In this document: one piece after another, positions 36,390 to 60,152 of the stretch
How positions within the stretch are numbered: the stretch's first letter is position 1
Layout of the letters: every line of letters starts with the position of its first letter
Assembly: GCF_026240635.1 (NCBI RefSeq)
Contig: NZ_CP110848.1
Span: forward strand, 2,703,501 to 2,767,500
Length of the DNA: 64,000 bases
DNA from: Trichothermofontia sichuanensis B231
GTDB taxonomy: Bacteria > Cyanobacteriota > Cyanobacteriia > B231
Direction of reading: 5' to 3'
Translations under genes and position numbers: made by a program
The notes under the pieces: generated by a model
Databases searched by the model: none
The model's input: the letters and a program-made list of their open reading frames with translations, nothing else
Told to the model about the DNA's origin: nothing

Positions 36390-38456
36390 ATGTATGGGTC
36401 ACCGTTACCGGCTCCCGCTCCAGGGCCAATTGCCGCACCCCCCTTAGATCACTTCTTGGTGTGTGGCTTGGGCAGTTTGGGTGAGCATTGTGTGATGAAC
36501 CTCAAGCAGTTTGGCGTAGAAGTGAGTGCGATCGAGCAATCACCGCCCCCAACTTGGGAGATCCCGGAGTTGGCTACCGCCTTAACCCACTTAGTGGTTG
36601 GAGATTGTCGTCAGGCAGAAACCCTCAAACAGGCAGGCATCGATCGCTGTCGGGCAATTCTGCTGGTGACCAGTGATGAGCAGGTCAACCTAGAGGCGGC
36701 CTTTGCGGCCCGGTTACTTAATCCCCAGGTACGGGTAGTGGTGCGATCGGCTAAGCAAGAGTTGAATCAGTTGTTGGCAGAACATTTGCAGAACTACGTT
36801 GCGTTTGAACCAACCCAGTTGTCTGCGGATGCCTTCGCTGTCGCTGCGTTGGGCAATGATACCCTGGGCTATTTCCAACTGGAGGAGCAGTTCCTACGGG
36901 TTACCCGGCAGCACATTCCCCCAGGGCACCCCTGGTGTAATCAACGCCAGGTGCAGGACCTCAATACCCGACGGCGGCGCGTATTGGCGCACTGGCCGGC
37001 GGGATTTCCCACGAGTGAACATTTCTATCAATGGGACCCAGAAGCCCTGATTGGCGCTGGCGATACCTTGATTTATATTGAAACGGAAGCTGATCGCCGC
37101 TCAAGCTTGGGGAATCGTCTGAAACCAAGAGCTTGGCTACAACGGGCGATCGCCTATTGGCAGGAACTGCTTAGTACCCCTCGGCCCTTGGCTCACCTCC
37201 GGCAACAAATCTACTCACTTTGGCAACAGGGGGCTGCCCACCAAATCCAGCGCGTCGTAATTGTCTGTGCTTTGACGATCGTCACTTTATTGTTTTTGGG
37301 AACAACCCTGATCTATCAATACTTTCCCGCCCCGATCAGTCGCTATGAAGCATTCCAGGCAACCGTTGTCTTGTTATTAGGAGGCTATGGGGATATTTTT
37401 GGGGGGGTGGAATTGACCGATCCCCTACCGAGGTGGCTCCAGTCCTTCAGTCTAGGTTTGACCTTGATTGGCACCGTTTTTGTCGGGGTTGTTTATGCCC
37501 TATTGACCGAAAAATTGCTGACGGCCCAGTTTCAGTTCCTAGCACGACGTCCCCCCATTCCCACCCAAGGCCATACTATCATCATTGGGCTAGGGCGAGT
37601 GGGTCGGCAGGTCGCCACCCGGCTGCAACAGTTTAAACAACCCCTCGTGGGAGTACATTCTTCCCCCTTACCAGCCGATACGTTGCCCCAAATGCCTCTG
37701 GTGATCACTCAGGACATGACCCAGGTATTACCCAGGTTGAACTTGATGACCGCTAAAAGTGTTGTGGCAGTTACTGAGGATGAACTGGCCAATTTGGAAG
37801 CCGTCCTCACGGCCCGTGCTGCCCACGCCAATGCCAACTTGGTAATTCGCACGTACAACCGTCGGTTTGCTGAAAATATTGGTCGTCTATTCCCAGATGC
37901 CCAGGTTTTGTGTGCCTCAGAATTAGCCGCCCAAGCGTTTGCCACGGCTGCGTTTGGTGAAAATGTACTGACCTTACTCTATTTCGATCGCAGCACGATT
38001 CTGGTCACTGAATATCAGGTCGAGACCCATGACACCCTCAACCAACGGCTACTAGCAGAAGTGGCCTATGGTTATGGGGTTGTCCCCATTTTGCATCAGC
38101 GATCAGGGCAAACGGCCACCCTACTTCCCAAAGATGAGCTGCGGCTTCAGGCCGGCGATCGTCTGATTGTCCTAGCGACCATTGAGGGGTTACAACGGAT
38201 TGAGCAAGGTAATTTACTGCCACGTCAGTGGTACGTACACATTGACCGCCTGCCACTAGGGGCCGATCACAACATTCTGGCGGAAGAAGCCCGCACGATC
38301 GTTGCCTTGATTGCAGGGTGCCGCATTAATGAGGCGATCGCCCTCATGCAGCACAGTCCAGGCACCCTGCCATTACCCCTCTATCGCCACCAAGCGCAAC
38401 GTTTAGCAAAACGCTTGCGTCGCGCTGGCTTCCAGGCCCGGGTTGTACAATCCTAA
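36390..38456 (+). CDS. Two-RCK potassium-channel-like protein with a GGYGD pore motif
   Basis: 688 residues. An N-terminal TrkA-N/RCK domain (about 20-160, HFLVCGLGSLGEHCVMNLKQ) comes first. Two membrane helices follow (about 291-315 and 352-378) flanking a pore loop ending LLLGGYGDIFG (Gly331-Asp335). A second RCK unit (about 395-520, TIIIGLGRVGRQVATRL) and a TrkA-C-like tail complete it. The normal potassium filter TVGYGD is replaced by LGGYGD. The order RCK-pore-RCK differs from MthK-type channels, where the pore comes first. It is probably a ligand-gated ion channel in the plasma or thylakoid membrane; ion selectivity is uncertain. No operon partners. Confidence 0.82.
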   Translation: MYGSPLPAPAPGPIAAPPLDHFLVCGLGSLGEHCVMNLKQFGVEVSAIEQSPPPTWEIPELATALTHLVVGDCRQAETLKQAGIDRCRAILLVTSDEQVNLEAAFAARLLNPQVRVVVRSAKQELNQLLAEHLQNYVAFEPTQLSADAFAVAALGNDTLGYFQLEEQFLRVTRQHIPPGHPWCNQRQVQDLNTRRRRVLAHWPAGFPTSEHFYQWDPEALIGAGDTLIYIETEADRRSSLGNRLKPRAWLQRAIAYWQELLSTPRPLAHLRQQIYSLWQQGAAHQIQRVVIVCALTIVTLLFLGTTLIYQYFPAPISRYEAFQATVVLLLGGYGDIFGGVELTDPLPRWLQSFSLGLTLIGTVFVGVVYALLTEKLLTAQFQFLARRPPIPTQGHTIIIGLGRVGRQVATRLQQFKQPLVGVHSSPLPADTLPQMPLVITQDMTQVLPRLNLMTAKSVVAVTEDELANLEAVLTARAAHANANLVIRTYNRRFAENIGRLFPDAQVLCASELAAQAFATAAFGENVLTLLYFDRSTILVTEYQVETHDTLNQRLLAEVAYGYGVVPILHQRSGQTATLLPKDELRLQAGDRLIVLATIEGLQRIEQGNLLPRQWYVHIDRLPLGADHNILAEEARTIVALIAGCRINEAIALMQHSPGTLPLPLYRHQAQRLAKRLRRAGFQARVVQS

Positions 38457-57757: not shown

Positions 57758-57979
57758 GTTGCCCCACCGGACACGCTAGGCAGGGAGGGGTTACGAAAGG
57801 TTAAGCGGGATATTAACCTAAATAAAGATTCGGACAAAGCAATCCGCGCACAGTCGTTTGTCCCGAAAGTGATCCCACTCAAGGGATAGACCAGCAGATC
57901 GATCACCCTTGATAGAAATTAGGTATGGAGATATTTACCCTAAACCAACTGCCTTTGTGGAGTGGTGCCGACGGCTAAT

Positions 57980-59314
57980 ATGACCCCTGCCAGAACCATT
58001 TGTCTTGGCTTCCTAGCGGTAATTAGCTTAGGGACCCTGTTGTTATGCCTGCCGATCGCCCATGCGCATGGGGGGTGGGGCAATCCCCTCGTTGCCCTCT
58101 TTACCGCCACCTCTGCTGTGTGTGTTACTGGTCTCTCGGTGGTGGATATCAGTAGTTACTACAGCTTTTGGGGCCAGTTGTGCATTCTTGCGCTCGTGCA
58201 GGTGGGGGGGTTAGGCTACATGACCTCCACAACCGTCCTCTTACTCCTGGTAGGACGGCGCTTTAGCCTGCGCGATCGCATTACCTTACAACAATCCCTG
58301 GATTTACCAGCGATCGCGGGAGGACCCCAATTGGTGCGATCGATTATGGCCACGACCCTGCTTTTCGAGCTAACGGGTGCCTTTGCCTTGCTGCCAACCT
58401 TTATTCATGATTTTGGGGGTCTCCAGGGCGTGTGGCTGGCGATCTTCCACAGCATCAGCGCGTTCAATAATGCCGGATTTAGTTTATTCCCAGATAACCT
58501 TATCCGGTATCACAATTCGCTCATCGTCAATGGTGTTGTGGCAGTTCTAATTATCTTTGGCGGCATTGGCTATCAGGTCATTATGGAGATGTACCTCTGG
58601 TTGCGCGATCGCTGCTTACGCAGTCGCACCTTCTATGTGCCCTCCCTCCACTTTCGGGTCGTCACGACCACCACCCTGACGCTGCTGATTGCCGGATTTT
58701 TGGCACTGTTATTGACCGAACTGCGTAATGATGCCACCTTGGCCAGTCTGCCCCTACCCGCAGCGCTCCTGGGGGCCTTCTTCCAGTCTGTAACGACCCG
58801 CACCGCTGGCTTCAACACAATTGATATCGGCCAGATGACGATCGCCTCCTTGTTTGTCATGATTGTGCTGATGTTTATTGGGGCGAGTCCAGGTGGCACG
58901 GGTGGGGGAATTAAAACAACTACCGCACGGGTGCTCTTTAGCTGTACTGAAACCGCCCTCCGCAGCCGGGAAGAGGTCGTTTGCTACCAGCGAGAGATTC
59001 CCATGCCGTTGATTATTAAGGCCGTGGGTGTGGTCGTCGGTTCGGTAACCGTCGTGATTATTGCTACCACCTTCATTGCCTTTAGCAATCCCGATCTCGA
59101 TTTTGTCCAAATTTTCTTTGAGGTTGTCTCTGGCTTCGCCACGGTTGGTCTCTCGACGGGGATTACGACGAAACTGTCGGTCTTCGGTCAGATTGTCCTG
59201 ATTGCGATTATGTACATCGGTCGGGTGGGTGTCCTGATGCTAATGTCAGCCCTGCGCACTGAACCTAAGCCCAGTGCCGTCAACTACCCAGAGGCCAATT
59301 TGTTTGTGGGTTAA
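57980..59314 (+). CDS. ktrB: KtrB-type potassium (Na-dependent) transporter, pore subunit
   Basis: 444 residues in the Trk/Ktr/HKT superfamily, plasma membrane. Four pore loops with the filter glycine are visible: SAVCVTGLS, SAFNNAGFS, TRTAGFNT and GFATVGLS, each between two helices. The intramembrane gate region GASPGGTGGGIKTTT of the third repeat is present. ATG 57980 is chosen by family alignment; a GTG at 57962 is in frame. The NAD-binding regulatory subunit follows 142 bp downstream, so both halves of the system are here. It is important for osmotic adaptation in cyanobacteria. Confidence 0.92.
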   Translation: MTPARTICLGFLAVISLGTLLLCLPIAHAHGGWGNPLVALFTATSAVCVTGLSVVDISSYYSFWGQLCILALVQVGGLGYMTSTTVLLLLVGRRFSLRDRITLQQSLDLPAIAGGPQLVRSIMATTLLFELTGAFALLPTFIHDFGGLQGVWLAIFHSISAFNNAGFSLFPDNLIRYHNSLIVNGVVAVLIIFGGIGYQVIMEMYLWLRDRCLRSRTFYVPSLHFRVVTTTTLTLLIAGFLALLLTELRNDATLASLPLPAALLGAFFQSVTTRTAGFNTIDIGQMTIASLFVMIVLMFIGASPGGTGGGIKTTTARVLFSCTETALRSREEVVCYQREIPMPLIIKAVGVVVGSVTVVIIATTFIAFSNPDLDFVQIFFEVVSGFATVGLSTGITTKLSVFGQIVLIAIMYIGRVGVLMLMSALRTEPKPSAVNYPEANLFVG

Positions 59315-59456: not shown

Positions 59457-60152
59457 GTGAACTTATCGTCTTTGAATTTCTTTAGTACGTTGCTAGGGAA
59501 TAATCGCCAGTTTGCGGTGATTGGCCTCGGGCGATTTGGACGAGCAGTGTGTCAAACATTACATAATCTCGGTTATGAGGTGCTCGGCATTGATAACAAT
59601 CAGCGGTTGGTCGATCAGGCCTTACATGATGGGGTGGTGGCCCATGCCCTTCAGCTAGACTCTACCGAACCCTCAGCGCTTGAGGAAGCTAGTATTGCGG
59701 ACTTTGACACGGTCATCGTCGCGATCGGCAATTACATCCAGGAAAGCATCATCACCACACTCAACCTCAAGGAAGCCAAGGTACCCCACGTGGTTGCCAA
59801 GGCCTCGTCAGAGATCCACGGCAAGTTGCTAGAACGGGTGGGAGCCGATCTGGTCGTCTTTCCAGAACGGGAGATGGGCTGTCAGTTAGCCCGTGCCCTA
59901 ACCAAACCCCGCATTCTCGATCGCTTTGAACTAGATCCCGACAACAGTATTGTTGAAGTCGTTGTCCCAGAACGCTTTGATAACAAAACCCTGGCGGATC
60001 TGGACCTGCGCCGGAACTATGGCATTAGCGTCCTAGCGATCGGGGCTGACCAGAAGTTCCAGATCAATCCCCAACCTCAGCAAAAGCTGGTTAAGGGCCA
60101 AATCATGGTGGTGATTGGCAGCAATCGCGATATCGATCGGCTGCCGGTTTAA
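59457..60152 (+). CDS. ktrA: KtrA-type RCK regulatory subunit
   Basis: 231 residues, cytoplasmic ring-forming regulator of KtrB that binds ATP/ADP. RCK_N: FAVIGLGRFGRAVCQTLHNL, GIDNNQRLVDQAL and DTVIVAIGNYIQESIITTLN. RCK_C: about 150-231, including IVEVVVPERFDNKTLADLDL and GQIMVVIGSNRDI. The start is GTG 59457, without a strong ribosome-binding site. Gene order ktrB-ktrA on one strand supports the pairing. Confidence 0.93.
   Translation: MNLSSLNFFSTLLGNNRQFAVIGLGRFGRAVCQTLHNLGYEVLGIDNNQRLVDQALHDGVVAHALQLDSTEPSALEEASIADFDTVIVAIGNYIQESIITTLNLKEAKVPHVVAKASSEIHGKLLERVGADLVVFPEREMGCQLARALTKPRILDRFELDPDNSIVEVVVPERFDNKTLADLDLRRNYGISVLAIGADQKFQINPQPQQKLVKGQIMVVIGSNRDIDRLPV

Follow-up and report, generated by a model that had tools for sequence, protein, structure and literature searches.

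A cyanobacterial family of channel-like proteins with RCK domains on both sides of the pore and a rewritten selectivity filter

Described systems and the plan of the protein

GsuK of Geobacter sulfurreducens (PDB 4gx0 and related; PMC3510474) is a K+ channel with a 2TM pore and two different RCK domains per chain in the order pore-RCK1-RCK2, and its nucleotide site, marked by the motif GxGxxG...D/E, belongs to the RCK without a direct link to the pore. MthK has one RCK, placed after the pore, an ordinary K+ filter and a TM2 that continues into the RCK ring. In the eukaryotic CASTOR/POLLUX/DMI1 channels (PMC6697748), which are gated by Ca2+, an RCK gating ring sits on a pore without TVGYG; both RCKs follow the pore and the filter reads ADSGNHA (AD(S/A)GNHA). 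CASTOR (PMC6697748), NirBac (PMC4607889) and NaKTs (PMC5052707) show that a K-channel fold whose filter has been rewritten can form a non-selective channel or a Ca2+ channel. NirBac, prokaryotic members of the K+-channel family known from three genes in a few bacteria, have rewritten filter loops, a Kir-type cytoplasmic domain and no RCK, and are functionally non-selective. NaKTs of Tsukamurella is a non-selective 2TM channel with the strongly non-canonical filter LPMGNGPLSP, gated by Ca2+ in the filter and not by an RCK ring; the authors of that work met no comparable filter in any other channel (PMC5052707).

The protein described here, from Trichothermofontia sichuanensis B231, resembles GsuK in its 2TM pore, its two different RCKs and the nucleotide motif on the RCK that is not joined to the pore; however, this nucleotide-type RCK precedes the pore, and an LGGYGD filter and a bL12/ClpS-like tail are added. 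It shares with MthK the continuation of TM2 into the RCK ring, but carries an RCK on both sides of the pore and a rewritten filter. It shares with CASTOR/POLLUX/DMI1 a gating ring on a pore without TVGYG, and with NirBac and NaKTs a rewritten filter loop, although the loop of NaKTs is a different one and the present family, unlike NirBac, is phylum-wide. Its last 75 residues have the fold of the bL12 C-terminal domain and of ClpS, to which sequence identity is about 20%, but here this domain is fused to a channel-like protein. With moderate confidence, we read the protein as a nucleotide-gated tetrameric 2TM cation channel of the MthK/GsuK superfamily, with an RCK ring and without selectivity for K+.

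The gene lies in a stretch of 64,000 nucleotides (NZ_CP110848.1, positions 2,703,501 to 2,767,500), referred to below as the window. ORF 36390-38456 on the plus strand, from an ATG at 36390 to a stop codon ending at 38456, codes for 688 amino acids with the following features:

36390..38456, + strand: whole gene, 688 aa, RCK1 - 2TM pore - RCK2 - bL12/ClpS-like C-terminal domain
36450..37085, + strand: N-terminal RCK1, residues 21-232, retaining the nucleotide-site residues (Pfam, AlphaFold2, alignment)
37095..37241, + strand: variable two-helix linker, residues 236-284 (AlphaFold2, alignment)
37242..37322, + strand: TM1, residues 285-311 (AlphaFold2)
37341..37376, + strand: pore helix, residues 318-329 (AlphaFold2)
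37371..37403, + strand: pore-loop motif LLLGGYGDIFG, residues 328-338 (alignment of homologues)
37377-37394, + strand: LGGYGD filter, residues L330-D335
37431..37544, + strand: TM2, residues 348-385, family consensus GxxFVGVLYALLTE, acidic residue at 374 (AlphaFold2, alignment)
37575..38207, + strand: RCK2, residues 396-606, joined to TM2; acidic residue missing from the nucleotide motif
38229..38450, + strand: C-terminal domain, residues 614-687, bL12-CTD/ClpS fold (model, profile, fold search)

Pfam recognizes two TrkA_N stretches (the best at 22-131, E 3.8e-35) and TrkA_C at 541-605, and the AlphaFold2 model of the full protein (single chain, 51 input sequences, mean pLDDT 88.8, pTM 0.77) places TM1, a pore helix with a re-entrant loop, and a TM2 running into RCK2. 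Together, the Pfam matches and the positions of the modeled elements bear out the RCK-pore-RCK order proposed by an earlier sequence-only reading of this DNA, which had also named the LGGYGD filter, found at residues 330-335; the 75-residue domain at 614-687 was overlooked in that reading. The 139 homologues described below rule out a chance ORF, a frameshift or a mutation.

The gene is present in a single copy in its own genome, which also has an ordinary MthK-type gene with the filter STVGFGE (L002). The MthK-type gene has a second copy with a broken frame (L004, G000:C1:2153785-2154452), which stands beside a second lgt-like gene, and comparison with L002 gives the impression that an lgt-channel segment was duplicated. 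Elsewhere in the window, a TrkH/KtrB-like membrane protein (57962-59314) adjoins a 231-aa KtrA-like RCK protein (59457-60152); apart from a TrkA_N match, the families of this pair were read by eye. The two probably form a Ktr K+ uptake system, 20 kb from the channel-like gene. Among 80 homologous loci with flanks of up to 6 kb, no gene family occurred near the channel gene in more than 16, so gene context points to no partner.

A family with a rewritten pore loop

A scan of 386 genomes of the phylum, with a cut-off of E <= 1e-113, found close homologues in 55 cyanobacterial genomes, at 59 places and with 35-51% identity, the gene itself aside. A single-sequence scan of genome contigs found no relative, and an alignment-based scan of the contigs returned 371, of which the best 80 were kept; these are all cyanobacterial by title and include Chlorogloeopsis fritschii PCC 6912, Nodosilinea nodulosa PCC 7104 and Nostoc punctiforme NIES-2108. 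We call class A the 139 sequences from both scans; the scans used different collections, and some species may occur in both. In literature searches of open-licence papers we met no account of the family. The earlier suggestion of an uncharacterised family and not a mutation is upheld, and the family is real and widespread.

TxGYG is the defining signature of K+ selectivity, and it was found in none of the class A homologues (0/139). Position 330 is L in 118, I in 10, F in 10 and T in 1; position 331 is G in 138/139 and position 332 in 132/139; position 333 is Y in 129 and F in 9. The third glycine, at position 334, is more variable (G 98, D 17, A 16, S 6, P 1, N 1): it is absent in 41/139, with at least 15 switches between Gly and another residue on the tree. 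At the outer mouth, position 335 is acidic in 124/139 (D 117, E 7), with N in 11 and other non-acidic residues in 4, and the inner-mouth position 374 in TM2 is E or D in 128/139. Of the GGYGD motif, whose conservation the sequence-only reading had proposed to check, the frame LxGGYxD is kept, with the first two glycines and the aromatic residue, but exact LGGYGD is not, since position 334 is Gly in 98/139; GGYGD is the commonest form and not the rule. With the TxGYG residues gone, ordinary K+ selectivity is unlikely.

The 11-residue loop has a mean entropy of 0.85 bits, the lowest such window of the membrane domain (TM1 2.08, TM2 1.39). The distance from the pore-helix anchor, a conserved residue, to the filter-Gly column is 11 residues in every row of class A and of two related classes, C and D (see below), and 12 in the rows of class B, the Streptomyces homologues, the canonical RCK-pore-RCK proteins and the MthK-type proteins. 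The distance in KcsA is likewise 12. The loop of A, C and D appears, then, to be one residue shorter than the canonical one, a difference that is uniform across these rows, though subject to the alignment. As the best conserved stretch of the membrane domain, and one residue shorter on the alignment, the loop is a rewritten element under selection and not a mutation.

These data bear on two other readings. The protein could conduct K+ after all, its GGYGD backbone giving enough K+ sites and its odd sequence being tolerated; retention of the third glycine in 98/139 and the canonical filters of relatives with the same domain order would agree with this, but nearly every member lacks the Thr and Val positions, 41/139 lack the third glycine, and the loop is shorter by one residue, and we hold this reading to be improbable. 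The other is a non-conducting pseudo-channel, a membrane-anchored, nucleotide-sensing RCK ring with its output through the bL12/ClpS-like tail or through partner transporters, for example Ktr or Kef, which we regard as rather unlikely, though less so. The repeated change of the third glycine, the filters KGEYVD of class C and LFAIGDP of Streptomyces, and the fact that class A hardly matches Ion_trans_2 would fit such a protein. However, a dead pore should drift, and here no part of the membrane domain is better conserved than the pore loop, and TM2 and the inner-mouth acidic residue are kept; conservation of the loop could also reflect a structural role in packing of the tetramer.

The Pfam family Ion_trans_2 matches 3/51 class A proteins (best E 0.0076), and the profile match of class A to MthK over pore and RCK has E 0.0012. 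Since class A barely matches Ion_trans_2, the pore homology rests on the alignment, on the fold and on class B as a bridge. Class B proteins (RCK-pore-RCK, about 570 aa; 22 cyanobacterial loci, for example L071:2938-4686) have the filter TGAGG, with the five letters invariant in 22/22. Ion_trans_2 matches 21/22 of them, and their profile matches MthK over pore and RCK with E 6e-11 and NaK with about E 1e-5 to 1e-4. Class C (about 640 aa; loci L081, L084, L086, L088 and L089) has the filter [KL]GE[YFL]VD, for example KGEYVD, and class D (736-738 aa) has TGGYGD, both in the RCK-pore-RCK order.

Outside the phylum, relatives were sought in plasmid records, and tblastn of these records with the protein found only Streptomyces homologues (L185:1696-3831 and L186:1726-3771), with the order RCK-2TM-RCK and the filter LFAIGDP/LFAINEP. 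One of these records is annotated just as "NAD-binding protein".

RCK-pore-RCK proteins with ordinary filters do occur in another taxonomic class of the same phylum: TTTGYGD (L187, L188), TTTGFGD (L189) and TVGYGD (L190), from genomes with a contamination of 1-2% for L187 and L188 and of 7-9% for L189 and L190. Most of the C-lobe of the second RCK is missing in L187 and L188. The sequence-only reading had paired the RCK before the pore with the odd filter; both are present in this protein, but the order is not tied to the filter, because these homologues combine the same layout with ordinary filters. Ordinary filters, which that reading had named as evidence against its proposal, are thus found in distant relatives and are absent in all 139 close ones.

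In a tree built after removing the filter columns, the RCK-pore-RCK proteins split from the MthK-type proteins (SH-aLRT 100), class A forms a single clade (98) and groups with class C (97); the deeper branching order is uncertain. Class D falls with B/K/S, a weak placement (support 93) that conflicts with the C-terminal domain and the shorter loop that D has in common with A and C.

Gating ring and C-terminal domain

In RCK1 of class A the motif GLGxLG (GxGxxG) is nearly invariant (G26 and G31 in 88/88, G28 in 84/88), with an acidic residue at position 49 in 77/88 and D72 in 88/88. RCK2 keeps most glycines, and its acidic position is mainly T/S/H/N. The nucleotide motif is instead on the post-pore RCK in class B, in the canonical L187 and L188 and in the MthK-type rows. 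We infer from these residues that an adenine nucleotide on RCK1 may be the ligand, with RCK2 as the transmitting domain. The similarity to GsuK RCK1 and RCK2 gave no decisive evidence that the domains were truly permuted.

Structure searches with Foldseek and VIA-align matched TrkA, GsuK, MthK, BK and the CASTOR ring, in keeping with the Rossmann fold of RCK (TrkA_N) domains; the VIA Z scores were 23.7 for GsuK (the best), 22.7 for TrkA, 21.5 for DMI1 and 21.1 for the CASTOR ring. The match to the plant proteins raises the question of a Ca2+-permeable channel like CASTOR/POLLUX, a special case of the non-selective cation channel and not exclusive of it. Castor_Poll_mid (PF06241) gives weak matches in 3/51 members (best E 0.011), and the acidic D335 at the filter recalls CASTOR, which requires the filter Asp D265 (PMC6697748). 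Nevertheless, the ring matches GsuK and TrkA equally well or better, which makes the CASTOR match generic, D335 is replaced by Asn in 11/139 and by other non-acidic residues in 4/139, and the domain order differs from that of CASTOR/POLLUX. We consider permeability of the CASTOR type doubtful.

The C-terminal domain, residues 614-687, has the fold beta-alpha-alpha-beta-alpha-beta, and its model folded alone reached a pLDDT of 89.6. Its profile, compared with PDB sequences, found bL12 in 11/12 matches (E 0.0019-0.06). The best Foldseek match was 1ctf, the C-terminal domain of E. coli L7/L12 (prob 1.00, E 0.002, TM 0.63/0.75), followed by other bL12 and then ClpS, and the VIA Z scores to bL12 and ClpS, 8.4-8.9, are just over the usual noise of 7-8. 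Pfam found nothing significant in this domain, with a Ribosomal_L12 match in 1/24 members (E 0.029). A class A model of the domain found it in 138/139 class A proteins and also in C and D, and gave no match in the class B, Streptomyces and canonical proteins; hence, shorter loop and tail co-occur, both being confined to A, C and D. Known proteins of the bL12-CTD/ClpS fold dock other proteins, which also speaks for the pseudo-channel with its output through the tail.

Proposed mechanism and significance

The nucleotide-gated cation channel that we favour builds on computed features: the domain order, the 2TM-pore-loop fold, the RCK-channel homology, the conserved rewritten filter, the RCK1 site and the bL12/ClpS-like tail. 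Four chains would assemble into a tetramer, with an intracellular gating ring formed by both RCKs of each chain, one pre-pore and one post-pore. An adenine nucleotide (ADP, ATP or NAD) on RCK1 would alter the ring, and RCK2, joined to TM2, would pull the gate. The LxGGYxD loop would lack the carbonyl/threonine ladder of TxGYG and be one residue shorter, so the pore would pass monovalent or divalent cations without K+ selectivity, while the C-terminal domain may dock a partner protein. The likely ancestor was a K+ channel of the ordinary type that already had the RCK-pore-RCK order. A more specific proposal is a phylum-wide cyanobacterial class of nucleotide-gated cation channels that derives from ordinary RCK-pore-RCK K+ channels, has a new filter type (LxGGYxD, shorter than TxGYG by one residue) and couples through a docking tail to protein quality control or translation; it is speculative and has a low probability in our view.

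A search with the motif T-X-G-[YFL]-G-D led to at least one of the founding cyanobacterial K+ channels, SynK (PMC2853561). In Synechocystis PCC 6803 the count of K+ channel homologues is five (PMC13099474). K+ channel scans based on such motifs miss proteins of the class A type. On one scaffold, these proteins and their relatives offer a natural series of filter rewrites, TTGYGD (canonical), TGGYGD, LGGYGD, LGGYAD/LGGYDN, KGEYVD and TGAGG, which allows a direct test of how a K+ filter can disappear from a loop that selection maintains. If class A proteins conduct, they would represent an unrecognised nucleotide-gated cation pathway in cyanobacteria.
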